Shown piece after piece: positions 37,980 through 64,000 of a stretch of 64,000 nucleotides of DNA. The notes under the pieces were generated by a model. It searched no databases, was not told the origin of the DNA, and worked only from the letters and a program-made list of their open reading frames with translations. Each line of letters opens with the position of its first letter. Within the stretch, counting starts at the first letter, position 1. Source of the DNA: Antedon mediterranea (lineage: Eukaryota > Echinodermata > Crinoidea > Comatulida > Antedonidae); contig NC_092680.1 of assembly GCF_964355755.1 (NCBI RefSeq), positions 4,689,001 to 4,753,000 of the forward strand, in the 5' to 3' direction. Position numbers and translations under genes: made by a program.

Positions 37980-40338
37980 ATATTTTTTTCAAGAAGACTA
38001 AAGAAGATAAGATTAAACTGATAAATAAATTATATCACTTTTAAAGAATCTGGTCCTTACTGTAGTCAGTCATCGAAAAGGAGGTACTTTGGTTATAAAC
38101 ATGCAATATTTAGAAAAGATTTCCAAAAGTCTAGAGATCTCCACACACAATAGAGTTATGTACATTTATAATCACAGGATTATTACAACATATACTATTG
38201 TAAACAAATTAGTCATATATCTTAGTGGTTTTATATCTTGATTCTTTTAAAGTCTTCTTCTTATTACCAAGACTATTGTGTTTTCTTCAATGAATGATTA
38301 AAACATTTAAGTGTCTATAAGCGTGTCAATTGGGGTTGATACTTCCGTCTTCAAACTTAATAATAAAAGTGACAAATCCGTAAGGATGAAATCACGTTAA
38401 GCTCCCCTACAGTTGAAGTAGATTCAGGAACTATCATTTAATGCCAATAATGCCGAAGTATAACCAAGAGTGGATTAGGTCACATGTTGGGATACCAGTT
38501 ATTATCACAAAAACTTAAACATACTTTATATGCCTACAACATGTAATGGTATGCATATCACTAGCTACATTTACTTTCAACAAAAGTTGTAAATATATTT
38601 AGAAGAAAAAAAGTCAATACTTGTTTCATTTTTACATTTTTAAAAAGATACCTTTTATTTGTACAAAAAGACTATAGTTATAGAATACTGTAATCCATGA
38701 TTTTGGGAAGCAAATCGATTGCATTTCCTTAGCTTGTCTGGTTAGGATGAAGAAGATTTAATTTGACATTTTCATTGTGGGAATCTTTCAATATTTCAGT
38801 GCCTATGATATGTAGATTTGAACAAAAATATACTTTCGTTTTTCGATTAAAAAAAAAGTATCTGTATGTTCAGTGCGTGCGCATCCTGCCTTTACATACT
38901 ACTGCGCATGTCAGATGACCTGATACTCAATTATTATACAGTAAAAAAGTGAAAGTTTGTCAGCTTATCTGGCAAATTGTATGTATCTTATTAACTGTGA
39001 GGATTATAGACTTATTTACCGGTCGTAGGTTAGGATGTTGACTTAGAACCAGTGTGGTTTTAGAGGATGTGGAATTTATTACTGGGTCATGTTGAATAAC
39101 ATCACACTCAACATACATTCAAATATGAAATTCCTGTTCAATTATTTCAAACAATTATTAAGAACTACAAATCTTTATCACCTTGACACAAAATCTCATT
39201 TTGTTACTTTCATAAACTTAATTATTTGAATTTCTCCTTATGTATTATTTATAACAGTTTGTTATATTTAATAATCGCATCCTCAAACACTAATCATTTT
39301 TAATAATATAAAATATTAATTCATTATCAGCTTCCATGGTTTATCCTTCTTTTTAATGTTGTGTCCCTTTGTCCTTGATTTTTTTTTTTTTTTTTTGCCT
39401 TCGTTGTATTTCCTCCATCCATTTGTTGTTTTGTCAATTTGTATCAATACTTTTTAGAAATCACATAGAGAGAAATGTATTCATTTCATTCTCCAAAACA
39501 ATAATTTATTTAAAGTAAAATAAACAGTCATTACTATAAATATGAATGCAATATATTCATTTTCTTTATCAGAAATTATTGAAAGCTAAATTAGCCTGTA
39601 ACTTACTATACAATGATTTTTGTAGAACCAGCAGATAATCAGTATCATATGTGAAAATAGACATTTTCTTCTCTTTTTGTACGTGCCTGTTTTAAAAATT
39701 TTTATTTTACTATTTGTAATGTAGCCTTGTTTATAGCAGTAATGTTTTATAATGTTTGTCTATGTTTTGACGGAATCTAACTCGGTAGGAATGTAGCCTA
39801 CTGGATATAGATGTTACTAATATTGCATTGCTTTAGGAGTAGGCCTACTGGAAAAAGAGGAAATTACTGAGTCATGTTATAGTTAGTATTGTTTCAAATT
39901 GTGTGATTCATTTTATGATGAGATCAACATCATAAGTATTTGACTGTTTTGAATTCAATAACCTAAATTTGTCTTAAACCGAATAATGGACTTTATTGCG
40001 AGATATTCATCATGTTATGGCTCACTGTAATTGTAATCTAATTGAAATAAGCAGTAAAAGTAAGTCCAGATCTAAGTTCGGAGGAGGAAGTTTGTTAATA
40101 AGCTTGTCAGTTTTATATATCAGAGGTTCACACTCGAGCAAGGTAGAAAAAGTCGTCTGCTAAAGCGCGCGAGTATTTCACTTCCCCAGCAAACTCGTCA
40201 CTTCCCTCTGACTGATCGGCTAAGCGTATAAAGTTCCAAATTTCTAAGTGAGCGCTGATTTTCGTGCATGGATCAAACTTTGAGTCATCGGCAGGGGATC
40301 TAGGCAACCTTCGACTCTAGAGTTTCTGAGATAGAAAC

Positions 40339-40358
40339 GATATTGTTTTCAGTTGACA
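40339..40358 (+). promoter_or_regulatory. Start context / possible acceptor of the FAM167-like gene
   Basis: ATATTGTTTTCAG directly precedes TTGACAATGTC. It looks like a splice acceptor at 40352, so a 5' UTR exon may lie upstream. If not, the transcript starts in the more GC-rich stretch around 40130-40330. Confidence 0.4.
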
Positions 40359-43300
40359 ATGTCTTGGTTGATAAGCAAGGTTTATACTACTTTGAGAGGT
40401 GCCAATTCCTCAAGATCCACAAATAGCTCCGTAGCAACAACAAGATCATTTAGTGATGCCGATTCATTGGACCTTAACTGCACCGTCAGTCCAGGGAATA
40501 GCCAGAGATTTAGTTATATGTCATATAGTAGTGCTGATAAAGATGGGTCTTCGTGTGATGGATGGAGTCGACCGGAATCTACTGCAGGATCTATTCACGA
40601 CAGTGAGTGCCCAGATGGGTTAATTATAAAATTATATGGGGAAGATTACATATTTAGTGATGGCGAATATCGGCCAATGCACCGGGAACCAGAATCAAAA
40701 CGACTTTCCACAATTTCAATCAGCTGTTCCAACCAAAATAATGAGAACGAAAAGATTTTCTATGGAACGGATGTTAATGAACAACAATATGAATGGTCAG
40801 ATGAAAAAGAGGACTGGATTACACCCCTTGAATTTTGTGGCAGAAATAGGCAGTCTAAAAGGAGATCAGTAAGGCCTAAAAGTGAAAATGTTGACGAAAT
40901 GTGGACACGAGTCATGAAATCTGTAAATGAATCATTCGATGATGAAGACATGGATTTGAACAACACCACATTTGAAGATACTTTAAAACTAGCCACGACA
41001 CAGACTGTATCTGATATAGCCAAGAAAGAACCAGAATCAGACAATAACCAGCAAACGGTAAATTTTGACAATTGCATAAGAAATGTAAACAAAGAAAAAC
41101 AGGACAATTATATTGAAACAATTGAAGATAATAACTTCATAAATGATAATATAAACAATGATTTTATTATAAGACCTGAAACTGTACAACAGTATATAGA
41201 AGTAGACTCCCTTCCAGACTTTGATTTAGAGATTGTTTCGAAAGAGGAGGAAACGCAAGATGGTGCTGATATGTTTGTAAATGATGAACCAAAACCTGAG
41301 GATGAGGATGAATTTCGTTCTAGTTTAGCCGGAACGTCTGATATTCTAAGCGAAATTTTCAATCATTTTGGACTTCCATCTGATGTGGAGAACGAAGAAC
41401 CGTTTAAATCTGTTGAATCGACTGCGCATGTTCAGTCAATCTCGAAAATAGAGTGCGCACTCAACTCAGAAATAGATTCGTCTCGCGAGATTAAACATTT
41501 TGAACAACCAAAATCAACAACGTTTAGTAGAACTGGTAGCTACTCTTCATTAAGAGATATATTACCAGATGACGATGTCGGTCTCTTTGATGAACTTGAG
41601 TGTATATTCACTGATAAGCAGTGCTCACTTTTTGAGGATGAAGGATCCTTAAAAGAAAGCGATGAGATCAGTGCGCTGCGCAAAAGCATTGAGGATATCG
41701 TTAGTGAGTTAGACAAAAGAACACACAGTGAATTACAGCTCAAACGACTAAGACAATCCTTGAAAAAGCTTAGTAATTTTGGAACAAGAAGTATCAAGAA
41801 AAATAAACAACTTAAAACTAATTCGTCATCGGTTTCCTCGGCAACCGATACAGACGACCAGTGTGAACGCATGCATAACGCTTGCAGCAAGCCCATGAAC
41901 ACGCAGAATCCCCATTCACACGAAACCCATTCAAGCGGTAAAAATACATCAACATATTCTGATAATAAAGGGAGTTTGGATTATAGTTTTAACTTGAATG
42001 GCCTTGACTATGATCAGCCTATTGAACACGATTCTATAGAATATGCCGTAACAAATAACATATTCTCTGCTGAATCCGATGTGTTAGGTAAAAAGCAAAT
42101 AGAACGGGCAAATACACGCTTCATACCGTTTGTCGAGTCAATAAAGGCTTTGCGTTCGAATAGTGATGGTCAACAAAACGTGAAGCAACGCTTTAACGCG
42201 TTATTTAAAATCAAGGGGAAGCATACAGCTAGTAACGTTACACGCGGCGGTGAAGCTGACAAGAATCCTACTGAATTAATTCGGAACTTTCACAATAATA
42301 AGGATTTATTACTAAAAGATGATACTACCGAAAATAGCAACGGTGATTCTAAAGAAATCACATGTTCCGGAAATAAGGCAGGCGATAAATTGACGATGGT
42401 CAAAGTCCAGCCTGAATTTACATCGACTAAAATAAATAGAAGATATCGTAAAGCTTTTCGTACTGTAAAGTCTGATCAAGAGTCAATCAACGAGGATATT
42501 ATTAAGGGAGAAAGCGTAAATAGTGAGTACCCCCATGTTGAATTACACCATTTGCAAGATTGTACACAAGTGTTTGACTCTGAGTTAGGGTATGAACCAA
42601 CAAATGTTAGTGATGTTTCGCTAACGAATGCTGATTATAAAATGGGATGTATTAGTGTATACTGTAAATCAAAATCACAGGATACTGAACATTCAGAAGA
42701 TGGCAATTATTATATTAATAAGGGTGATAACCGACTTGTTTGCAATGAGGAGAATGGAAAATATGGATTCGAAAATTCCGTACTTGATAAGGATATTGAG
42801 GAATCCAGTCATGAAGATGAGCTGGAATCCAGGATAGCACACCGAGACCCCAGATTGCAAATCTCACTCAAGAATGACAGAAATAAAAATGGCATGAATT
42901 ATATTTTGCCGGAAATTCAGAGCGTGAGCCAAACCGAGTCATCATACAAACTAGGCACCGGTTTAACGAATGATTCAGCTTTATCAGTTGATTTCTTAAA
43001 AACTGAACAAGCGGACAAGGACGACCTCGACAGCGGGTTGGAGTGCCAGGACGAAGCTAGAGAGGAAGATATTGGTCGCTTTGACCTAAAACACACCAAT
43101 GAACTGTCTGAAAATTGTACTAAGGAACCCAAATACAACTCATCGTATTCCGAAGAAACAATTTCTATGAGTGATTTCAACGAGTTGCTCACTGACCGTC
43201 AAGAATACAGTAGCGAGGAAATTGAGAATTTTGTGGCAATTAAATCAAAGGAAACTGAAATTGATGATTATGACAAGATATCGGATGATGTAGATTCAGA

Positions 43301-46300
43301 CTCATTTTGGCAGGAACCTTTTGAGTTTTGTTCGAGTAACTCACCACTTAGCTCACCGTGTTTGGATGACCATGGTAAACAGAGTGCTACGGAAATACTT
43401 GAATTGTCAACACTATTCACTAACACTGTAGGCCAAAGCGATATATTTAATAGCATAGGCTACGAAATGGGGAATTCGGCAACGTCTGAGCAGCGAAGTA
43501 TTTCAGAGGACGATAACGATCACAATAAGGACGGATTTTGGGAAGTTGGTGTGAAAACAAGGCGATCGAGTGCGTTTGGAACGAAACGAGGGTCAAATAG
43601 AACATCGCAATTTTACGTTCCTCTGAGTGTCGAAGAAGATATAATCGTCCCTCAAACGGTAGGAGCGGTTTATTTAACTCCAGTTGAAGATTCTTCCACT
43701 GATGATCACATAATGCGGGATAATTTGACAGAGAGTTCCTTTGATGGAAGTCTACAGGATGGCAATCAAAGCGATTGCACTTCCGTTTCCTACAGCTCCT
43801 CGTTTGGCATTGCTTGTATATATAACGAGGATACAGAGACAGTACATAGTCACGAATCGGTAAATATACCTAATAATGAACGTGTTAGAACAGAAGATGC
43901 TGACTCTCTTATTAGTGCATCATCAACAGTGATAGATTCGGAAGAACATGTGAACGTCATCCAAAAACAATCGTCAAATCAGTCTATGAGTGCAATCAAC
44001 CAGGCTATTAATAACTCATGTTCAAAGATCAAACATTGGAAAAGTGTTGATGGTATGGTTTATCGTTTAAATGAAGATAGTAAACGTGATAAGAAACTGT
44101 TGGTTTCACTGGATCCAATTTATGATCGTCAAACTCTAACCAGCAACATGAATGAAGATTCCTTGATGAATCACGAGGAATTAAATAATAACTGTAATAA
44201 AAATGGTTTGACACTCAAATCGTCGGAAGTAGTTTTAAAGAAAAATGTACGGGTAGAAGAAATGACAGTTAATGAAATGGAAACAACAAACAGCAATGGT
44301 CTTGAACAAACAATAGAATGCTTAGAAGACGAATGGCAAAGAAATCGATTATTAAGAAAGAAAAAAAGAGATGACATGAAAAAAAGAGAGCAAGCTCTGC
44401 AGGACAAGGTTGATTGGGTTCGAGATGAAATCGTAAGTTTACATCATTTTTATAAACATAGGCCTACATGGATAATACGATTTAAATAGCTTTTACATTC
44501 AATGGCTCATGTCCTGAATAATTTGTTATGCAAATGATCGTCTATAGTAGCCATCTGGTACAACATACTGTTATTACCCTGTTTAAAATTATTCAAAAAC
44601 TGTATTTGATTTAACACAGTGTGTAAGTATACAAACACCATTTTAAACACAAATTTATCAACATGTATATTTATATAAACACAACAGGCAAATAACATTA
44701 ATTTTATATATGTATATAATTAATTCAAAAATTGCTGATAGTATATTGTAAATAAAGTGGCTATGGCTTAACCCTCCTTATATATTCCACTGCTTCACAA
44801 ATCTCGTAACAAAACAACATTTTACCTTTTGTTATATTAACGTATACACACTACTAAACAATCGCGCCCCGGCACTATAATGTATACCATTCTACACAAA
44901 GCTCAGTTTTTGTATTATCTTCACAAGGTATGGTGAACTATTTATTTACTGCATATCACATGTTAGGTAAATATACTTAAAAGTATGCCATGACATAGAT
45001 AATTCACAAGTCAAGTCCTGCACAAAGAGACAAAGTCCGTTAAATATAATTTTCTTCCATTGGTATGACTAACCCATATTATATCTGCCATAACTCCGGA
45101 AATCTATATAATAAATTTAACCATAAAATATATTCAACCACAGTACAAATAAGTTTTTATTATTCTTTTTTTTAAAAGAGAGGAAATACTAGCATAATAC
45201 TGGTAAATACTGAAAACTAAAATACTGTACAGAAATTACCAATAATCCTTAGTACTGTGAATACAGTAAATGCATGTATTTGGCTACAGAATGTTTTAAT
45301 CTTTAACATTTTGTTAATGTACATATGTCCAAAGTTACGTAATATTATTCAAGTAAACATGACAAAAACATGTCTGCTTTCCGGAATGTTATAAAATGAT
45401 CTACTAAATGAAATTAAAAAACTTTCTTACAAATTAAAAAAAAATATTTCAACAATAATTTTGAAATAACAAAATTAATAAAACAAAAAAATGTCAAATT
45501 TATTTTGGCTTCTGTGCTTCCCTTGTTTACTAAATAATGAAAAGCAAAACATGATTGAATAAAGCAAGCGACCGATATATTGTTCTATACTAAAGTTCTG
45601 TCTACACTATCAAACTCAAATGTGCCCAAATATGGTAGTAATATGACATCACCGTGTCCATATTTTGGCAAATCACTTTTTTTGTCACAATAAGTTTGAT
45701 AGTGTAGACAACGCTTTAGTACTAACATTATTGGGGAGAAGAACCTTGATCATCGTCTCTGCTATGGGTCCATAGACCCGAAAGTACCTTAGGCCTATCA
45801 ATTTCTTGATGAACGGTGTCATAACAGTATTCATGTAAAACTTGACATTTCTCGTCCATTTATTTAACATATTCCATATGTTATCGATAATAAAACACAA
45901 ACAAAAGGCGTCAATATTAAGAAGCAAATTGCCAACCATGATTACCAAGTAACTTTAGCTCATTTGTCCTCATTATTCGTCACGCGTTCCAAACTCATTA
46001 AGAATAGTAATGTTTACCAAATGAACAACATTATCATCTCGTTATTGTTGGTCACCTCATCTTCTCTGTCTTTGTAGTAGAGTTCCCACTGATTATATGC
46101 GTTGTTCTCGGTTGAGCGCAGCTGCTACCATACTTAAACAATAGGTTACATTAAGACTAACGATAAAAGTAGGTAAACATTACGTCAGACATGAAAATTA
46201 GGCCTAGGCCTACTTCATTATGCATGATGTTACCTACCTACTATTATTTCAATGTTGAACTATTATGATTGAATAGTCATTTTTAACACTGATATATGCT

Positions 46301-52300: not shown

Positions 52301-52890
52301 TAAAATACCGTAATTAAAATATCTTTTAAATGTATACGAAAAATGAATAGAATAGGAATTTAACATTATTAGATTTTCAACAAGTTGATTCCATGTTCGT
52401 GGGCCTGTAACAGTTAAAACGTGTGCAGTTATATTTAATCTGCAAAATGGTATTTGAAGGTAGAAAATTCTCTCATGTGTCAATATTAATTTTCTGAAAT
52501 TTGTTTCAAATACTGAAATTTGTTTCAAATTCTTAAATTTATTTTTGTTGTTTTCAGAAAAATATGAAAGAATTAGATAAGAAGCTCATGGATCAATTTT
52601 TCGAGTTAAGATCAGTTATCCACAAGATGACGTTTTCAACAAATCGACCAATCAGAGACTTGAATATATCAGATCTTGACGAAGAAGATGCTTTTTATGA
52701 AGATGCTGAAATAGTTGAATTTGATAAACAGTGTATACCCGCGCATGAGCAGTACATCCCAGCATTTAGGGGGCGAACTGTTTCTATGATGACTCCACCA
52801 TCTGAACGTCGTTTAAAACTATGGCCTCATAATAGGAGAATGCCGTCATTCACGTCAGAAGATGATGTACCATTAGACATGTTATTATGA
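40359..52890 (+). CDS. Very large acidic protein with FAM167-like C-terminal helix
   Basis: Two coding exons: 40359-44432 and 52558-52890, joined phase 0 across an 8.1-kb intron (donor ATC|GTAAGT, acceptor TTGTTTTCAG), giving about 1468 aa. The first ATG in the long frame is 40359 (MSWLISKVY). Most of the protein is Ser/Asp/Glu/Asn-rich and looks disordered. A short predicted coiled coil lies near residues 435-475 (EISALRKSIEDIVSELDKRT). Near the end, basic KKKKRDDMKKREQALQDK leads into VDWVRDEI|KNMKELDKKLMD, then QFFELRSVIHKM. This matches the FAM167 pattern WLRKEL..M...D..L..QL..LR.DI.KL (W1353, R1355 and following). FAM167A (DIORA-1) and FAM167B are small vertebrate proteins, so a 1.4-kb-codon front end would be unusual. 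Function unknown; the family call is tentative, the gene itself is secure. Confidence 0.8.
45592..45716 (-). mobile_element. MITE-A copy 12 (FAM167-like intron)
   Basis: Left end AAAGTTCTGTCTACACTATC, one reverse CCAAATATGGTAGTAATATG unit, right end TTTGATAGTGTAGACAACGC. Confidence 0.78.
46793..46949 (+). mobile_element. MITE-A copy 13 (FAM167-like intron)
   Basis: Complete copy flanked by TA. Ends AAGCTCTGTCTACACTATCA and TTTGATAGTGTATACAGAGC, with two to three 21-bp units. Confidence 0.82.
49780..49935. repeat. Dispersed CCCCTATTAAAGGGACAC-type repeat
   Basis: Two tandem-like blocks (ACCCCTATTAAGAGGACAG and ACCCCTATTAAAGGGACACT) end in TCCCCTTATAGAGGATATAC. Same family as in USP14 introns 6, 10 and 12. 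Confidence 0.5.
50819..51004. mobile_element. TTAA-flanked foldback MITE (family T, intact copy)
   Basis: TTAA at 50819-50822 and 51001-51004 bracket 178 bp with inverted ends GCTTGGTTCCCACTAG and CTAGTGGGAACCACGC. Inner arms carry GACGTAAACGCAACGCAAGC, and the loop GTTATAGACAGTTAGCAATC. The 4-bp TTAA duplication is the mark of piggyBac-type integration (family knowledge); there is no transposase. Confidence 0.85.
51659..51826 (-). mobile_element. MITE-A copy 14 (FAM167-like intron)
   Basis: TA on both sides. AAAGCTCAGTCTACACTATC and GATAGTGTAGACAGAGCTTT ends, two reverse units. Confidence 0.84.
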
Positions 52891-53773
52891 TTATAAGAAA
52901 GAACATTAATTTTTTTCCAATGCAAACTATTTATTAAAACAATTCTTCCTCATAACCTCTAGAGACTGTTGTAACGGGATTTCAAATTTCATTCCCAGTT
53001 CACACAGACTTTTTGGGATATTCGTAATCTTTTGAAATTGTATTGGATTCGACCGACCACCTGCAGTTAATACAGTTACTGTCCTATAGTTGCCAATATA
53101 AGATCTTATCAATGCCAAGGCTTAGTAAAATTAGCTCGTAACAGCTCATTATCCTATGTTCAGAATTAAATACGGGACCTTTACCTTTACCTGCCTAACT
53201 ACTGTGACAGGTTTGTTTTGATTCATAACAAATATAATAAATGTTATAAATAAAATAGCAGAAATGTATATATATCAATGCTATGAAAGAAAAGGGTTGG
53301 GGATTCTATTGTGTTCTATAGGCACAACAGAGCAAAAAATAAACCAATGTGGTAAAAGTGATTACACGCATTGTCGCCCGAGCACGACAGGCTCTGTATA
53401 ATCATATTATTTATAACAGGATGAGTGATTTAGTATTATAATAAGACTATTCTGACAAGATACTGGTGCTATTTTAATGTTCTATTAAACAAATAATGGC
53501 ATACCTTTATGAAGGTGTGTTGCCATATAATAAAGTTCAACTATTTGTTAGCATATTTGCTTTATTGACAATAAAGAGACACGGATGGTAATATTTATAA
53601 TATTATACAGTAATCTATACCGGTATCTTTTATTTTTAAAATGTGTCATTACGAAGCTAGCTGAAATGTAATACTTATAGGCCTAAAGAAAGTACAATAA
53701 TAGAACCTCTCCTTTGTATCAGGGTCCACAAATATTGTTAGAAACTTTCAACGGGGATATTATGCTTCTCTTA

Positions 53774-54113
53774 TTAAATGCTTGGACGCAACGCAAGGAC
53801 GTTAACGTAACGTAAGCGTGTTAAAGCGTGGTTCCCACTAGTGACGCAACGCAGCGACGTATCGACGCAAAGTGATGTATTGCGTAATCACAAATGGGAA
53901 CCGACAACGCAACAGTGCTGCAAAAATCGCAGGTTTGATTTCACGCAGCGAGGCGGGGGCAAACACAATTATTGGAAGAACATTTTCTTACGTTGCGTAG
54001 GTTGTGTTACGTTGCGTCGCTAGTGTGAACCAAGCTTAACCAATGAATAGCAATAGTTCGAATAATCCATCGCCTGTGATTGGTCAAGCACTTATGTTGC
54101 GTCACCTTTCACT
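53774..54113. mobile_element. Outer, split copy of family T foldback MITE
   Basis: The left half (53774-53820: CTTGGACGCAACGCAAGG ... AAGCGTG) and right half (54040-54113: CCAATGAATAGCAATAG ... GTTGCGTCAC) together match the arms of the intact copy at 50819-51004. They are separated by a second element inserted at the TTAA of its GCGTTTTAACCAATG segment. Confidence 0.72.
53821..54039. mobile_element. Inner family T MITE inserted at a TTAA of the outer copy
   Basis: TTAA at 53821-53824 and 54036-54039. Ends AGCGTGGTTCCCACTAGTGA and TCGCTAGTGTGAACCAAGC. The interior matches the 32925-33157 subfamily (AAATCGCAGGTTTGATTTCA, TTTTCTTACGTTGCGTAGGT). Confidence 0.82.
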
Positions 54114-54951
54114 GAATTATAGGAGTTCTACTGTACACAATAAAATCAAGATGCCTATAATGTATTTAAATCCAAGGTAACTTAAGGCAAAATAGTGGAC
54201 AATGCTAAATCATACCTCAAACAGTTAGAGAAAAATATCAATGTTTTTAATAATGTCAATGTATTTATAATCTTACAAATATTTATATTTCGTCTTTTTA
54301 ATAAACCACTTGTTAGGGTATTTATGAGTTATAAACGTTACTGGTACGTCATTATCTGATGACAATATTACTATTATTTTTTCTATAATTTTGTAATTGA
54401 AAAAGATGATAAAATAGTTGCAAAATTGTAATTGTTTAAAATTATTCGATAGACTCTACGAATGCTATAATTACAAATTCGTGCTTTTGTCAGTCTTCCA
54501 GCGTTAATACCTAGTAAAAAGGAAAAACAGAGTTGTCATTGTTGTCAATTTTAGAGAAAGATGTTCATCGAAAAAAAGGAACCATATAAACTATATAGGT
54601 TAAAAATAAGAGAAACAAAATAACTTTTATATTAAATGTGTAATTTGATTGTTTGATTTTTATATATAAGTATAACTTAGTTTATTATTATGTCGCTTGT
54701 ATGTCTATATAACCATGCTATATAAAGAAAATCAAACAGCAACAACATACAATCACGTGCTAAAAATGTATTAAGAAAAATCTGAAGCAGTGGGGTAGAA
54801 ACTCTTGCTACTTGCCAACTTGTGATTTCCTTCTTTGGTGGATCGTGACCATTTTCTAATTCTATAGGTTTGAGGAACAATGGAAAATGATAATATAGCT
54901 CACTTTTTTATGAAACACATTCTGAATTATAAGGCATGATAGGCCTTTATA

Positions 54952-55091
54952 AAGCTCTGTCTACACTATAAAACTATTTTGACAAAAAAGTATGATATGC
55001 CAAAATATGGTAGTGATGTGCTCAAATATGGTAATGATATGACATCATCCTGTTTTTGGTCACATAAAGTTTGATAGTGTAGACAGAGCTT
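54952..55091 (-). mobile_element. MITE-A copy 15
   Basis: Ends AAAGCTCTGTCTACACTATA and GATAGTGTAGACAGAGCTT; two reverse CAAATATGGTA units. Confidence 0.82.
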
Positions 55092-56361
55092 AAGAACAAA
55101 AATATTTAAATTAGAATGCATATTGTCAAAGCGCATGTTACTAGAATACCTTAATATTTTATGTGTAATAAGTAAATAGTTTCTGAAGTATGCTGTTCTT
55201 TCAGGAGTGATGCGGTCTATCCATCCATACATGTACAAAGCACGGATATTCCGCACGTTCATATATAATTTGATAAAATGTATATGATATATTTGTAAAA
55301 TTGATACAATAGAATTGAATAAAGTAATTTTTTTCGTCAAACAATGAGTTATGATTGATTTAGAGTGAGTTATATTTTTGTAAAAAAATTAACTTTCTTT
55401 CACTTTTACACTGATTTGCATTTGTCCATCTTATGTAATACATTTTTCCAAATAACATTTGATTACAATGGAAATATCTAAACACAAATGTTAAACTTTC
55501 ATTTTCGAAGAGTGGCTGTATACCGCGCTCCATCTGTAATAGCGAATATGACAATATGATGAGTTGTGGAATGTTAATGTTGAGGGCGTGCTGCGTAAAA
55601 TACTTTCTGCGTGTGCGTCCTCGAGTGCTCGCGGTGCATCTCCATGGTAATTAGGTACTTCGGTAGTGCTTAACCCGAGTAACTTTAACAAACTGATCTT
55701 GTTGTAAGGAATACATCCATGATGTAGGCTAGGCTAGGCCCTATACTTACTGTCTTTATTTTTATATACATTTTCATGGGAGTCTGAATGAAGGTAATTT
55801 AACCATACAGCATACTAGTTGCTAAAATCATTTCGCGTTATAAGTGCAGATTACTCATTTTCAAATAGCTAGGCCTAGCATATAGAGACACGCCTACCTA
55901 TGCCTCCTAAAATGCGGACATATAGGTCGTACCTATAAATATATAGCGTGTACCTGTAGCAATACGTACAGTGTAAAATCAGGGAAGAGTGAATTTCAAT
56001 CCCTGCTTTCTTTCACAAACCGCGACTTCCGACTCAATTCCCATGTTTGGAATCCCATTTTCCGGTAGCCTGGGTACGGAAGGAAAAGACCAGCTTGCCT
56101 GACACTTATGATTTTACAAACAATAGGTGTTTCCAATACTCCCATCATATCGATAAGGATCGATTAAAATATAAAACACACAAGCAAGGCCCATTGTATA
56201 TGTGCCCATATCACAGTTTTCAGCAACCCGATTTGATAGCAGTCACCTGGTATGTACCATATCGTATTATTTCTTTTATTAATACAAACTTTAAGTGCTT
56301 GATTTTAAATATAAAAACATTTATATTATTCTTTAAATTATCATTTTGTTTAGAATCATAT

Positions 56362-59351
56362 ATGGTTGATGGTAGCAACGTAGGTTCATGTGGAAAACAT
56401 AACTCTGAGTTTTGCAATCGTTCGCGCTACCGAGTAAAACCACTTCTCACCCCTGATCGTCTGCAGCTGGGAATGACGTCACGATCCTCCAAGATGTCAA
56501 ATACAACATTTCTCACAGCAAGTGGATTGATAATCATTTGTGTTGGATTATATTTTATCTGGACAAAATTTACGAAAAAAGAGGTTCGAGTTTACTATAT
56601 TTTCATATAATTAATATATGGACCAGGGAAAAGTGAAATTGTGTAATTTAACTCTGGACCTAATTTATAAACCCACAGTACTACCAATATTGCATTGTGT
56701 AGCCTATATAGACCAGTGCCACAGCACAACGTATTTGAATTACGGCCATCATGTCTATGATAAAATAAAGCATTATTACTAATAAATAAACTAATAAAAT
56801 CGTTATGTTTTTGTGCGGATTTTGATGACGAAAGAATGAGCCCATGCTGTTCTCTTAAGTTTCAGGTCGTATTTAGAGGTGGTGAATCTAGCTTATTTCG
56901 TAGTAATTTTCATAATAATAATAATAATAATAATACTTTAATTTTTATAATATAAAATATCTATATTCAAGTCTCAATTTTACATACAGGGAAAGAAAGA
57001 AAGACCTCGTAGTAACGAGAGACGCATTTCATTTGATTATGTAGTAACAATTAACGAACCTGTTCCGACATTCATCAAGAACTGTATCGAAATCATCGAA
57101 GAAAATGGTAAATATTGTATAGTATGTAATGAAGCTGTAGCTTGGTGGTTAACATGCTTGCCTCCCAAGGTTGTAACCCACGACTCTTTCAAATCCACTC
57201 CTTAAGCCTCAAATGCTTAGTTTATAAGCATGATACGTTATTAAACAGTTTATCCATCCTGTAATTGGCGAGTTTTTTGGATGCGTATGAAATTTTCATA
57301 CCAGCAAACCGTAAATAATGCTTATTGATAAAATGTTGCAGGATGGGAACGGCGGAGGAACAAAACCAATGTTGATAATGACGTTGTGACGTAAGTGATT
57401 ACATGATTAAGGTACCGTAATACTGTCATCATGTTTTAAAATTTATTTTGTATTTTATGCCTTTGTAGGAAGAGAACATCGCAACATATACCGTTCTCCC
57501 GGCAACAAGAAAAAAGTCGATAGAATATTAGACAATATTCAAGGTAACATTATAGATCTTTTGATGAATAAAACGCGGTGATTGAGCTTTTTAGACATAA
57601 CTTTCATTATTATCACAATCTAAAGATATGACTGTCAACAAGAATCAAGCATTATGATAATAACTCTTTTTTTACACTTTTAATCAAAAACTCTCCATTT
57701 AATAATTCAAGCCCATTCAACCCCCACCCATACTGTACCACTTTGTCTAGCCTTTTGTATAATCATCCTCTTACAATTTTTTTCTATTCTCTCGACTAGA
57801 TTAGAAAGTTTCAGTTTATTTATTTGTCCTCCACATTGTCTCTTATTTTTTCTACAAATATCCCTTTCTTCTACAATCTTCTATGTTTATAAAAGAATGA
57901 TAATAAACGATAAATATTAAAACAAAAGTTACCTAATTCTTTCTTCCCCAGATGCACCAACTTTGTTAGGACTAGAAGATGATATTGATACCATTTGCTC
58001 TTGTCTAAAAGCGTACATTGCTGCTCTTTCAAAACCTCTGATACCGTCTGAGCAGCAAAACGAATTCCTCAGAGTATTTACAGGTACAAATTAATTATTT
58101 TTCTAGAATACAATAATTAACTACAACTACAACTGCTTTAGTGTTTTCGAAGGTCCTCATTAGAATGTTATCTTTATACAAGACAGGCTTCATGCATATG
58201 GAGGATTTAAAATCGATTAGGTGACTGTGCAACCATGTTATTGTTAGTTCCTTATAAACAAACAACTTTTACACCAGTTATAAGTTCTTTAGTTTACACC
58301 AACATGTACTCCATTCAGACACTTCTTACTAATGGTTAATGAAGCACCAATAAAAAAATAAAAATTACACCATGTCTAAACTATCAAACTTTATGTTATA
58401 AAAAATGTGATGTGCCCATATATGGACATGATGATGTCATACCACTACCATATTTGTGCATATCACACTTTTTTTGTCAAACTAGTTTGATAGTGTAGAC
58501 AGAGCTTTAAAACGCTATGAAAACAATCGAGAGAAGTTTGAAATACAACATTTTATAAAAATCCAAATGCAGAATTTAAATAACATACTTTTTACAGGTA
58601 CAAACGAGCAGGAATCCTTAATGAGAATCATCCCAGAAATACCTACCAAGAACAGGAATGTGTTAGCCTCTCTCATGCTGCATCTCAATAGGTAGTAGGC
58701 CTATTGTTTATTAGTCCATAACAATGCATCTCTGGTTATATTTTTATGATAAACGACACATCATATATCATATTTATCACCATCAAACCACAATCACTGT
58801 ATATACGTTTCATGCGTATAGATCAACATTAAACTCTCTCTACACTATCAAACTTTATATGACAACAAAATATGATGTGCACATATGGACATGATGATGT
58901 CATATCAATACCATATTTGGGCACATCACACTTTTTTGTCAAACTTTTTTGATAGTGTAGACAGAGCTCTAGGCCTCTCCCGGTCACAATAATCATCATA
59001 CTCGTCATGTAATCATTGAAATTAAAATGATTTGTAATAATTATTTCCATAATCATCACAATCGTCATCAACACAAAATGATAATCTTTGCTTTTATCAC
59101 CATCTGTAAAATAATAGATGTTTTAATATATTGTCAACCAGTTAGATTGCCTAGTGTGAACACACCTTATCGTTTTTATTAACAGAATTGAGAGTATGAA
59201 CGCAACTTCTTCCAGTTTGAATCTTGCAATTTGCTGGTGGCCTTCGTTACTCCATCGAAACTTTACTGCTGTAGAAAATCTGGAACATGAATCGCCACGT
59301 TTGATCGAAATGATATCAGCAATGATAAGCCATGCAAACCAGTTATTTTAA
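56362..59351 (+). CDS. p190-like RhoGAP with predicted N-terminal membrane anchor
   Basis: Exons 56362-56583, 56990-57107, 57469-57543, 57952-58083, 58598-58691 and 59186-59351 (stop TAA) join in frame to 268 aa. Residues 49-68 (FLTASGLIIICVGLYFIW) are a predicted membrane helix followed by basic residues. The RhoGAP domain (about 95-268) starts VPTFIKNCIEIIEENG and has the arginine-finger segment NIYRSPGN (R122; usual form GIYRVSGN), LKAYIAALSKPLIP, RNVLASLMLHLNR and LNLAICWWPSLL. The last motif and the following FTAVENL resemble p190 RhoGAP (ARHGAP35/ARHGAP5) more than other families. It should speed GTP hydrolysis by a Rho-type GTPase at a membrane (inference). p190 proteins are about 1500 aa; this one lacks their GTPase-like and FF domains. 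The donor at 56584 (GTTCGA) is weak. The start is uncertain: an upstream frame (56047-56249) ends at a good GTATGT donor but is out of phase. Confidence 0.82.
56911..56934. repeat. (AAT)n microsatellite (RhoGAP intron 1)
   Basis: About eight AAT/ATA units. Confidence 0.85.
57131..57215 (+). mobile_element. tRNA-derived SINE head (RhoGAP intron 2)
   Basis: GCTGTAGCTTGGTGGTTAAC carries an A-box-like stretch, and ACTCTTTCAAATCC a worn B box at tRNA spacing. The A-box region matches the SINE at 12205-12302 on the other strand (GTGGCTTGGTGGTTA). Confidence 0.5.
58371..58507 (+). mobile_element. MITE-A copy 16 (RhoGAP intron 4)
   Basis: Left end worn (CATGTCTAAACTATCAAACT), right end intact (GATAGTGTAGACAGAGCTTT). 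One unit. Confidence 0.78.
58831..58970 (+). mobile_element. MITE-A copy 17 (RhoGAP intron 5)
   Basis: Ends AAACTCTCTCTACACTATCA and TTTGATAGTGTAGACAGAGC. One unit. Confidence 0.8.
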
Positions 59352-59984
59352 ACGAAGCAGATTAACTGTAAAACTAAATTGTGGAATAAAATTATCAATA
59401 AAAACTTTGCAATGAAAATGATTAGGGTTGTCTGCACTTTCCAGTATTTTTAGAAATTATCTTCCATTTTGTTAGTTTTTAGAATTAGTTTTAATTGACA
59501 TAATAATATTTTCTTTCTTTTAAAATTTAAACATCCAAACTTTTATTTAATATAAATTTCATTGTGTTAATTTAACTTCGTATTTTCTTCGATTCCGGTA
59601 CTTTTTTTACGTTTTTTTTTCTTTCTTTCTTTTTTGTGACGTACCGGTACAGGTACTTCTTTTACGTCTTTCTTTTTTTGTGACGTATCGGTACCGGTAC
59701 TTCTTTTACGTCTTTCTTTTGTGATGTACCGGTACGTTTTTTACTTCATATTGGGTACTACCTATTTAAAAGTATCGAGCATTTAAAATGTATTACAAAA
59801 TATCTTAAATAAACAATGTACAATTATAAACAGTAGTTTTAACTATATATATAAACAGTGCTCAATTTCTTTATAAAAACCAAGCCAAACAACTTTTTAA
59901 ACTATCATCAAAAATTTTACTTTTATGCAATTAAAAATCATGTTAAAATCAAGTTTAATCTTGTTTTTATTACTTTGTTTGTAT
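59352..59984. other. Convergent 3' ends of RhoGAP and P450 genes
   Basis: Poly(A) signals AATAAA for the RhoGAP transcript at 59385-59390 and 59397-59402. TTTATT at 59966-59971 is AATAAA for the P450 on the minus strand, only about 15 bases past its stop. Between them lies a GTACCGGTAC-rich tandem repeat. Confidence 0.65.
59596..59745. repeat. About 45-50-bp tandem repeat with GTACCGGTAC palindromes
   Basis: Three to four units combine GTGACGTACCGGTAC with TTCTTTTACGTCTTTCTTT. Copies start near 59596, 59643, 59690 and 59729. Confidence 0.7.
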
Positions 59985-62900
59985 TTAACTAATCCATTTG
60001 TTCCCTCGAGGAATCAATTGTATTTCAAACTGGTCCGCCACTCGAATCATATCTGGCTCTGATGGTTCAGTGCTTGTAGTAAGTTTACCTTGAGGTGCAG
60101 CTAAGCTGAACCTTTGTAGAACGGCGCCGAGAAGTGTAAAAACCATCATCTTAGCGAACTGTTCTCCTAGGCACATCCTCCTACCAATTGAGAATGGAAG
60201 GAAACTAGGCGGTGTGTAGATATTGCCTTCACTGTCGAGAAATCGGTCTGCATGAGAAAATAAAATAATAATAACAAACATGAATTTGTAATTCTTTATT
60301 CGAATAAATACGATATACAGTGGGTATGTAATTGTATCTAAATGCATTTACAATTTCTAAAAAAAGGTAGTGTAGTAATTTCAATAGAACATGCTTCCCT
60401 GAATTTTGAATGTCTAGTTCACCATCGTCGGACCACACTGCAATTACATAATCATTAATCAATTATAGCAATTAATCTATCACTGTATTTAATCAGAATC
60501 CGACCCCCAAAAATAGACAATTAACAATATCAATTTATTAATCGATAGCTGATCGATCCGGGTCATTAGCCTGCTCCTCACCTGGATTGAACTCAGCGGG
60601 TGAGGTCCATCTGGATGGGTCATGGTGAACCCACCACAGGTTAGATAACACCATCGTTCCTTTTGGTATTTTATACCCACAAATTCTACAAAAAAATAAG
60701 AAAGTACAGGCCTTTATTTAGTTTGTTCAGCTACTAAATTACTGTAAAGGACATTACGTGAGCATAGTTCCACTTAAATGCTTTCCACTGTCGACATTAT
60801 ACTACTATAGTTATGTATATAATATTTCCTTGGGATTTTTTTTCTTTTCTTTTTTATCTGTCTGTTTAAATATCATCTTTTTCTATAGGTATTCTGCTTT
60901 TTTTTTAACATTCTTTCTTCAACTGTTATCGTTTATTTTTTTATTTTTTACCTACATCTTGTTTACTGTCTTTTTTAAGTAAATAGGCCTAAATGTCACT
61001 TTGAATTTAATTGAATTGAATAGGTTATTATTCATTTGAACATAATAAGGATATATTTTTTAGTTATACGGTATAGGCTATGCTAAAAATTTGATGGCGT
61101 TTTTTCTTTTCTTTTATTCACATTAATAATGTTCTCACTCTGTGTCAGTGATAGTCTGATGGGGTCCATTGAGAGAAGAAAATGAACTATGACGTAAGAC
61201 TTCGAGAACTGTAGCTTCTAGATACCGTAAGTGGCACCTGTTTTTCCAAATTGGATATTGATTTGACGAGTTCTCGTCCAGTTCATTTTGTATCTTAGTT
61301 TGTACCTGTAAAAAATAAAACGAATTTATCATTTTTCCTGGTTTTTAAAATGGATCTTTTTTTTTTCAATGGGAAAAACGTCATAATGTAAGATGACACC
61401 GACAACGTCCAGTTCATTTTGTATCTTAGTTTGTACGCGGTAAAAAATTTAACAAATTTATCATAGACTATGATATTTTTCCTTGTTTTAAAATGGATTT
61501 TTTCAATGGAAGAAACGTCACATTGTAAGATGACTTCAATACTGTTTCACTCGAACAATACACGAAGATTTATTCTGTGTTTATATGCAGGGAGACTACC
61601 AATATAACTGTTACAATGAATGGTAGAGATTTTGTATTTCGTGAATTACCTCTTGGTTAACGGTTAGATATAACATTGCCCATCTTACGGTTTGAAATGT
61701 GGACTCAAAACCACTAGCAAACATTTCCCACGATGTCATAACCCCTTCATCTTCACTCATGCCAAGGCTCAAGAGGGCGTCAACAAAGTCTCTGACGTTT
61801 TCAGGTTTGTAGCTGCATTTGTGACGTTTGAATTCTCTCATAAAAACTTTTTCTCGGATGGAAATCAGCTGGTCAACCAATAGCTGTCGTTTGTTTGGAA
61901 AGATCTAGAAGACAAATAATATTATGAAATAGCTGAGACTCGATCGATTGCGATTCAGACGAAATATATTTTCTATAATGGGTTTAATGGTTTTAAATTT
62001 ATATAGCGCAAAATACAAATAGTCTCTATGCGCTGTTTAGCGTGAAAATGAAAATTTTGATGTAAAAAAAACCACGAAATAGCCTAAGAAAAACCGAATA
62101 AATTGACAAACAGAAAAAAAGACAACAGAAAAAAAAGTCCGAAAACGGAATCTTACACCGCACTGTTTCACTAACTTGTCAAGACAAGCTAGCTATTTAT
62201 TCACAAGTGTCATAGTTAATTAAACACCGTACATTACTTTAAACATTAGATTTTATACCATTCTTAAGATCGGATCAAACACCACCAATACCATTACCAG
62301 TTATATATTGAATACCGTCTCGTATAGTAAAGTACCAACCGTATTATAGCCGAGTAGGGTTCTCAGCGAAAGGCAGTGCCACTTATATTAGCCATATAAT
62401 CTCTTTTCGATCGTGGTGGAAGTCAACGTCCTTAAAGGACGATCCGGCGTATATCTGCAGGTACGGTTTCGAGTGCACGTCTGAGAGCAGCACTTACCTG
62501 CTGTATGGAGTTATTCGGTGTTTCCCTGTCGATAATTCCCTATTTTAGATAATTTGATGCAATATACTACGGTACTGTTTCCAATTGTGGCTCCTATAGA
62601 CCAAAAAAGAACGTTTTATGTTCTAACAATACCCAACAGTTTACTGACCTTAAAAAATGGGAAAACATCCACGATGTCACCTGGTTTGAGAACTATCTTC
62701 AGGTTATTATTCGCCTGAATGAGTTCCTCTAGTTCAGGATCACCGTCTTTATATCGTACACTACATGTAATATTCATAATAATATTCGTGATCACAACTC
62801 CTAACATGCCACTAGGATCAAACGCGTTGCGTTCCATGTTAAAAGAATTCAGTAACTCATCCACATCTTTGAACATCCCTGTACTTGTATCTTCAAAATA

Positions 62901-63356
62901 CCTAAGAAACTTTGATCGAAACGCTTTTGTTGACGCGTTTTTGCGTTTAACCCACGGTGTAGAGAAATTCCGGAAGGCAATACCTCCGTCGCCTCGCGAC
63001 AACCTGCCGATTGAGTATACATGTGGACGACCAGAGAAATCATCTTTTCTCAAGACAAAAGCTTCTCTAATAACCTCTGGACTATTGAGAACTAGCACAT
63101 CTTTGAATGCAAGTGACACCATAAAGACTTCTCCATATTGTTTACCTATTTGGTGTAGCGCGACGTAGGGCGGCACTTTCTTCATGAAAAGGTCGATGTT
63201 GCCAAGTATTGGGTATCCTCTTGGTCTTGGAACTCTGTGCTTTCCAGTAGAATATGCGTTTTTTCTTAAATAGAGAAATAAAAATAAGAGGCTGACTAAA
63301 ACCAAGGAAAGCACTATTCCTCCTTCTTCTGAGGAGGAACTTATTGTAAAAATCAT
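59985..63356 (-). CDS. Cytochrome P450, clan 2 (CYP1/CYP17-like)
   Basis: Five exons on the minus strand, 63356-62649, 61904-61650, 61305-61139, 60685-60582 and 60247-59985, join to 498 aa, a normal P450 length, with the first ATG at 63356. An N-terminal membrane anchor (GIVLSLVLVSLLFLFLYLR) and proline hinge (VPRPRGYPILGN) indicate an ER enzyme. KDDFSGRP is typical of the CYP1/CYP17/CYP21 group. Further marks are the I-helix ASGFEST (E303, S304; usually E/D-T), ExxR at E356-R359 (EVLR), FNPDRF and the heme loop FSIGRRMCLG with ligand C437. All essential residues are present, so it should be an active monooxygenase; substrate unknown, with steroids or planar xenobiotics plausible from the family. 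The third exon's acceptor region is duplicated in the intron beside it. Confidence 0.93.
61267..61545. repeat. Tandem duplication including the start of P450 exon 3
   Basis: About 61267-61407 and 61407-61545 are two copies: each has GTCCAGTTCATTTTGTATCT then TAGTTTGTAC, a TTTATCAT and TTTTAAAATGGAT stretch, CAATGG and AAGATGAC. The first copy contains the real 5' part of P450 exon 3 and its acceptor. The second lacks the rest of the exon and its acceptor is changed. Confidence 0.75.
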
Positions 63357-64000
63357 AACTATATTGATAACGTTGATATAAAGTTTGCGGTATGTTGATA
63401 AAGCTACTCAATTGCCAAAACGAACATTAAAACAAGTCTGTTCACTTATATTTAAGAACTAGAATAAGAACGCGCGTAACCGCTAGGTCTGCTATTAAGA
63501 TATTTGCATATACCGTGGGTAGGTCTACTCACATCTGGCAAGTGTATATTATAAGCTTACCTTTAAATCCTAGTAAATTGATAAGCCTTCCTTATCTCTA
63601 AGAATTCTATTTAAATTTCTATTAAATATAAGTAAAATATAACGAGGCACAAGAAGAGCGTTTAATGATTTGTGAAATGTTTTACAGTAGACCTAAAGTC
63701 AGTGTAAAACTCTAACTGAATGACGTCACATGATCTGAATGAAGGCGGCTCAGCCGGCCGATCATCCACGCGACTTATTATCAAAATACCGTGTTTCATT
63801 ATTTTATAGAAATAAATACTTGGGTAACGGTACGCATTTTGTTGTTTTGACAATCATTATTATCTTATCAAAACAGTGCTTTTGTCATCAACATTTCTCA
63901 CTATCAATGAATCATTATTATAATAATATGATAGGTTCAGACCCAACATTTTTCTGTATGTTGTAGATGAACCACACCTCCACCCATGTGTTTCTTCAGT
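63357..64000. promoter_or_regulatory. Upstream region of the P450 gene
   Basis: It should hold the P450 promoter and 5' UTR. The sequence is AT-rich. TGACGTCA, a CRE-like palindrome, lies at 63721-63728. No further exon was seen up to the window end. Confidence 0.4.

Follow-up and report, generated by a model that had tools for sequence, protein, structure and literature searches.

The window analysed here, a stretch of 64,000 nucleotides from the crinoid Antedon mediterranea (positions 4,689,001 to 4,753,000 of contig NC_092680.1, termed C11 below), carries on its plus strand a six-exon gene at 56362-59351 with GT/AG introns and a single 268-aa frame. The gene model runs from an ATG at 56362 to a TAA ending at 59351, exactly the span proposed in an earlier sequence-only reading of the locus. 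Exon 1 (56362..56583) contains the ATG, a hydrophobic segment, and the start of a basic stretch and ends at the donor GAG/gttcga in phase 0. Exon 2 (56990..57107; phase 0 in, phase 1 out) encodes the putative juxtamembrane basic stretch GKKERPRSNERR and the start of a RhoGAP domain, exon 3 (57469..57543) the finger loop NIYRSPGN with Arg122, exon 4 (57952..58083) the conserved Lys158 (in CLKAYIAALSKPLIP), and exon 5 (58598..58691) the middle of the RhoGAP domain, ending with HLNR in phase 2. Exon 6 (59186..59351) contributes Asn226 in NLAICWWPSLL, the C-terminal helix region, and the TAA stop codon. Two AATAAA polyadenylation-like signals are located on the same strand at 59385..59402, 34 and 46 bases 3′ of the stop.

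On the upstream side, a large acidic protein is encoded on the plus strand at 40335-44432 and 52558-52890. Its first exon comprises about 1,360 codons, and its charged, coiled-coil-like end seems to run on into the second exon about 8 kb away; the large acidic open reading frame (ORF) gave no match to a Pfam family. This gene was modelled by eye with an exon end at 44432 and an exon start at 52558, and its coding sequence ends in a stop at 52890, some 3.5 kb upstream of the RhoGAP gene's ATG. On the downstream side, cytochrome P450 exons on the minus strand (59985-60347 and 62616-63407) face the RhoGAP gene tail to tail. Because the upstream plus-strand gene ends in a stop codon and the P450 exons occupy the opposite strand, the RhoGAP gene looks like a compact gene in its own right. 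An Rfam scan of the window gave no match at gathering scores. The sequence TTTGATAGTGTAGACAGAGC was present 27 times in the window with at most two mismatches (0.01 expected), for example at 54954-55089 and 58833-58967, often as inverted pairs about 100 to 180 bases apart, as in a short inverted-repeat (MITE-like) element; within the RhoGAP gene, intron 4 contains one copy and intron 5 a pair.

Residues 100 to 238 of the predicted protein form a RhoGAP domain that covers positions 1 to 146 of the 148 positions of the Pfam profile (E = 5.8e-28; 98.1 bits compared to a cut-off of 24.5). Sequence comparison with PDB entries identified ARHGAP35 (3.6e-22) and ARHGAP5 (8e-20) as the nearest relatives, followed by RACGAP1 (1.3e-15), ARHGAP15 (7.1e-12), and N-chimaerin (1.3e-5); the latter three and other RhoGAPs share the RhoGAP domain with the window protein and have lower scores. 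A tree of 18 rows placed the window domain, the human proteins ARHGAP5 and ARHGAP35, and the p190 RhoGAP encoded on contig C7 of the same genome in one clade with support values of 97/96, with the C7 protein as the nearest relative (91/85) and ARHGAP15 outside the clade. The branch of the window domain was very long (1.88). Of 20 RhoGAP loci fetched from the genome, 13 entered the tree; the partial loci L005, L012, L015, L018, L019, L020, and L021 were excluded. Two alternative placements, both chosen after the tree had been seen, were rejected: with locus L017 and ARHGAP15 (p-AU 0.021) and with locus L009 (p-AU 0.033). A position outside the other p190 proteins was not rejected (p-AU 0.149).

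To locate p190 features, the genome was searched with the families characteristic of the p190 regions upstream of the GAP domain. RhoGAP-FF1 gave one match and RhoGAP_pG1_pG2 two matches, all on C7; none was found on C11 in these genome-wide searches, which can miss matches. We infer from order, strand, and nearness that the FF1 and pG matches and the p190-type GAP exons on C7, read from locus L001, belong to one gene, the genome's full p190 RhoGAP gene at about 22527524-22605588 on the minus strand of C7, which is separate from the window gene. A search of the genome with the window protein returned, beyond the gene itself, a single match with an E-value below 0.001, which was the last GAP exon of the C7 p190 gene (4.5e-4). 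An exon-by-exon search with the RhoGAP profile gave 53 matches among which the window gene itself was absent, so that other diverged RhoGAP copies may have been missed as well.

The exon structure points to the same relationship. The intron phases are 0, 1, 1, 1, and 2 in both the window gene and the C7 p190 gene, and the four intradomain breaks map to alignment columns 32, 56, 104, and 152 in the former and 32, 57, 104, and 152 in the latter; for exon 2, the phases and the break at its end are identical in the two genes. As a control, eight of the 13 loci in the tree were inspected using the ends of HMM segments rather than checked splice sites, and none of the eight broke at all four p190 columns. 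Individual breaks did overlap: L009 starts and ends near two p190 columns, L011 ends near one, L007 ends at one, and L008 ends near one and perhaps also starts near one. As single breaks are common to other RhoGAPs, single intron positions are not specific for p190. Based on the shared intron phases and positions together with the grouping in the tree, the window gene derives from a duplication of the 3′ end of a p190 gene, has since diverged, and carries a different first exon. An origin as a retrocopy of p190 was rejected, as the introns are retained. The earlier proposals that the GAP domain is most similar to ARHGAP35/5 and that the protein is short and has none of the GTPase or FF domains of p190 were thus borne out, the latter for the FF and pG domains, by the PDB ranking, the phylogeny, the shared introns, and the restriction of FF1 and pG1/pG2 matches to C7. 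Judged by its domain content, the gene is p190-derived and not a p190 protein, because FF1 and pG1/pG2 features were not found for it.

The extent of divergence raised the question of whether the copy is still functional. Across the five GAP exons, the window gene and the C7 p190 gene are identical in 64 of 193 amino acids and 268 of 579 bases, the window sequence contains no stop codon, and identity by codon position is 45, 64, and 30%; in the alignment used for the tree, 58 of 178 residues are identical. We mutated the codons of C7 p190 to equal divergence without selection, a crude simulation with fixed base frequencies and no indels. None of 2,000 simulated sequences remained free of stop codons, and the number of identical amino acids was 30.6 on average and 45 at maximum. 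As no simulation stayed open and the best one kept 45 identities compared to the 64 observed, we conclude that selection has acted on the reading frame throughout most of its existence. That the locus is a pseudogene, as its fast divergence and one weak donor site might suggest, is very improbable in view of the neutral simulations and of six exons with GT/AG borders joined in one intact frame.

In place of the FF and pG regions of p190, the window gene shows a hydrophobic segment at about residues 48 to 67 (window positions 56503-56562), followed by the basic stretch and the RhoGAP domain. The Kyte-Doolittle hydropathy over 19 residues peaks at 2.03 for residues 48 to 66. Among presumed noncoding ORFs starting with ATG in window positions 10001-39000 and 53001-56000, values of at least 2.0 were reached by three of 64 with at least 40 residues and by one of eight with at least 70 residues, which means that chance yields helices of this kind infrequently, yet not exceptionally, in the AT-rich DNA of the window. 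The net charge, counted by eye, is about +5 on the GAP side of the segment and about +3 on the other side, a difference favoring a topology with the C-terminus in the cytosol.

Several properties of exon 1 bear on its use. It is enclosed by an open frame of 205 codons (55993..56610, plus strand) containing an in-frame upstream ATG at 56200; a frame of this length was seen in one of 300 dinucleotide shuffles of 53001-57000, and of 500 shuffles restricted to the local 1.1 kb, none yielded a frame as long as 200 codons. Exon 1 joins exon 2 in phase 0, like the p190 exon preceding its GAP exon; a phase that suits both exon 2 and the p190 intron at this place would arise by chance in about one of three cases. 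The codon score of exon 1 was 0.028, compared to a noncoding mean of −0.159 and a coding mean of 0.175 (30 stretches), and this value was reached by 3.4% of 6,360 presumed noncoding windows; the second half of the exon scored −0.127. The scores of the other five exons ranged from −0.005 to 0.228, indicating that the codon test has little power when exons are short. The donor GAG/gttcga agrees with the consensus at five of nine positions, as does one further donor of the gene; its four remaining donors taken together span five to six, and five p190 donors six to nine. Protein and DNA searches of the genome, in which weak matches can escape, found no second match to exon 1. The poor donor, the intermediate coding score, and the lack of a homologue of exon 1 are the weak point of the anchor reading; exon 1 probably serves as the first exon of the gene. 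Three sources of this region were considered and dropped: another gene of the genome, sought by protein and DNA search and not found; the p190 exon preceding the GAP exons, which is unsupported by the bases, as the 3′ end of exon 1 matches no better than shuffles (14% as good); and, for the upstream ORF, a repeat, since 55700-56361 has no second copy.

Since exon 2, the first GAP exon, has no ATG of its own, some first exon must precede the GAP exons, and this leaves room for a soluble, p190-derived GAP-only gene that uses another first exon or donor, with the hydrophobic ORF being a chance frame in AT-rich DNA. Such a gene would agree with the weak donor and the intermediate codon score of exon 1. 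It could also use an alternative in-phase donor at 56379, which lies before the helix in the same ORF, matches six of nine consensus positions, and if used would drop the helix. Two upstream ATG-AAG micro-exons in phase 0 at 53509 and 55788 have donors matching seven of nine positions, and there are 20 candidates in total for a phase-0 first exon with donors of at least five of nine. However, two-codon first exons are also expected by chance, the ORF of exon 1 exceeds all the other candidates in length and is unusually long in comparison with the shuffled sequences, and it ends at a GT in the phase that exon 2 requires. We consider a soluble product rather unlikely.

The gene might also extend in the 5′ direction. 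An acceptor-like tttgtttag precedes a possible 5′ part of exon 1 (56354..56361, plus strand), and as there is no stop codon between it and the ATG, a 5′ untranslated region or a coding exon further upstream would be possible. A start at the ATG at 56200 would give an N-terminal exon of 128 residues with a second hydrophobic-looking stretch; the open frame 5′ of 56354 has a noncoding-like codon score of −0.148. These features would fit a longer gene of which the model covers the 3′ end, with further coding exons upstream that are either receptor-like or belong to the neighboring large ORF. This is quite unlikely, as the upstream gene, in the by-eye model, ends in a stop codon and C11 has no match to p190 FF1 or pG1/pG2. 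For the same reasons, the neighbor stopping at 52890 and the matches being confined to C7, upstream exons of a full p190 protein are unlikely. A possible promoter, TATAAATATATA, was noted at 55934-55945, upstream of the RhoGAP gene.

Regarding catalysis, Arg122, Lys158, and Asn226 are all kept in the alignment of the tree rows; the finger arginine and a conserved lysine are named as key RhoGAP residues in an excerpt of PMC2386819, and the arginine finger also in an excerpt of PMC9378701. The finger (residues 119 to 126) reads NIYRSPGN in the window protein, GIYRIPGK in C7 p190, and GIYRVSGN and GLYRVSGN in the human p190 proteins. Because C7 p190 of the same genome already has the proline, the serine-to-proline change and the resulting R-x-P-G finger are not peculiar to the window gene. 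The earlier description of the finger was thus correct for the retained catalytic arginine and overstated the oddness of its neighbors, among which only the change of glycine to asparagine is particular to this copy: glycine is present in all 15 other tree rows covering this position, and in 15 of 16 when L012, which is outside the tree and has Phe there, is counted. L012 (G000:C7:25369400-25370400) is a RhoGAP-like exon whose finger, apparently SFIIRIPG, also lacks the usual glycine.

The window domain also lacks two residues of the N-x-M loop, the methionine of which is kept in 16 of the 17 other tree rows. With the finger glycine changed and this loop shortened, GAP activity may have been lost. 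In an excerpt of PMC2386819, p85 is described as inactive although it retains the arginine finger, a precedent by which the window domain should not be called active from its sequence. Together with the long branch, the two changes would fit a membrane-anchored but catalytically weak or dead protein that acts as a decoy or scaffold binding GTP-loaded Rho proteins. We give this prediction a modest chance, as the three residues Arg122, Lys158, and Asn226 are all retained and the arginine that follows the lysine in other RhoGAPs is already replaced by Ala or Ser in the human p190 proteins and in C7 p190.

On balance, we slightly favor the prediction of a membrane-bound p190-type GAP without autoinhibition that arose by partial duplication of p190 and acquisition of a new first exon. 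In this scenario, a DNA-level duplication with retention of introns would have copied the last p190 exons to another chromosome, where the GAP exons acquired a new first exon that codes for a signal-anchor helix. The gene would then yield a small membrane protein of the single-pass type, its N-terminus facing outward and its basic stretch and GAP domain lying in the cytosol beside prenylated Rho-family GTPases; if anchored, the protein would act solely on GTPases of the same membrane. A helix of moderate hydrophobicity next to a basic flanking region would also suit a protein of the mitochondrial outer membrane. The middle region of p190 is reported to mask the GAP domain (excerpt of PMC9840978), and as this region is missing from the window protein, no autoinhibition would be expected. 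A polybasic region preceding the GAP domain of p190 is described as binding acidic phospholipids and shifting activity from RhoA to Rac1 (excerpt of PMC6523970). Its candidate counterpart in the window protein, TKKEGKKERPRSNERR, is basic but short; it would be held permanently at the bilayer, perhaps with a preference set by the lipid. Such a protein is predicted to switch off Rho or Rac constitutively and at a restricted place. That the p190 catalytic module, membrane-held and unmasked, has the lipid switch from RhoA to Rac1 locked on by its architecture is a more speculative prediction, which we consider doubtful.

Compared to the p190 RhoGAPs ARHGAP35 and ARHGAP5, the window gene has in common the GAP domain, the conserved lysine with the following arginine replaced, and a possible counterpart of the basic stretch just before the domain, whereas it differs in having a hydrophobic segment instead of FF1 or pG1/pG2 matches and asparagine instead of the finger glycine. 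With C7 p190 it further shares the CWWP motif, the R-x-P-G finger, the four intradomain intron positions, and all five phases, but it lacks the C-terminal tail. A search of the open-licence literature, covering titles and the beginnings of abstracts among the papers listed, found no transmembrane or membrane-anchored animal RhoGAP and no p190 duplicate. Plant formins resemble the window gene in that membrane anchors and RhoGAP-type domains have been shuffled within one protein family, but there the anchor is found in Class I and the RhoGAP-like domain, which has lost the finger arginine, in Class III (excerpt of PMC2386819).

If the favored reading is correct, the crinoid gene would encode a permanently membrane-bound form of an enzyme that is otherwise kept under control, and this form would lack the usual shielding. 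As p190 is controlled by masking of the GAP domain and by lipid contact, its anchored catalytic end would represent a natural test of these controls. It would also be an example of how a regulator can be converted into a location-bound enzyme by partial duplication and a new first exon.
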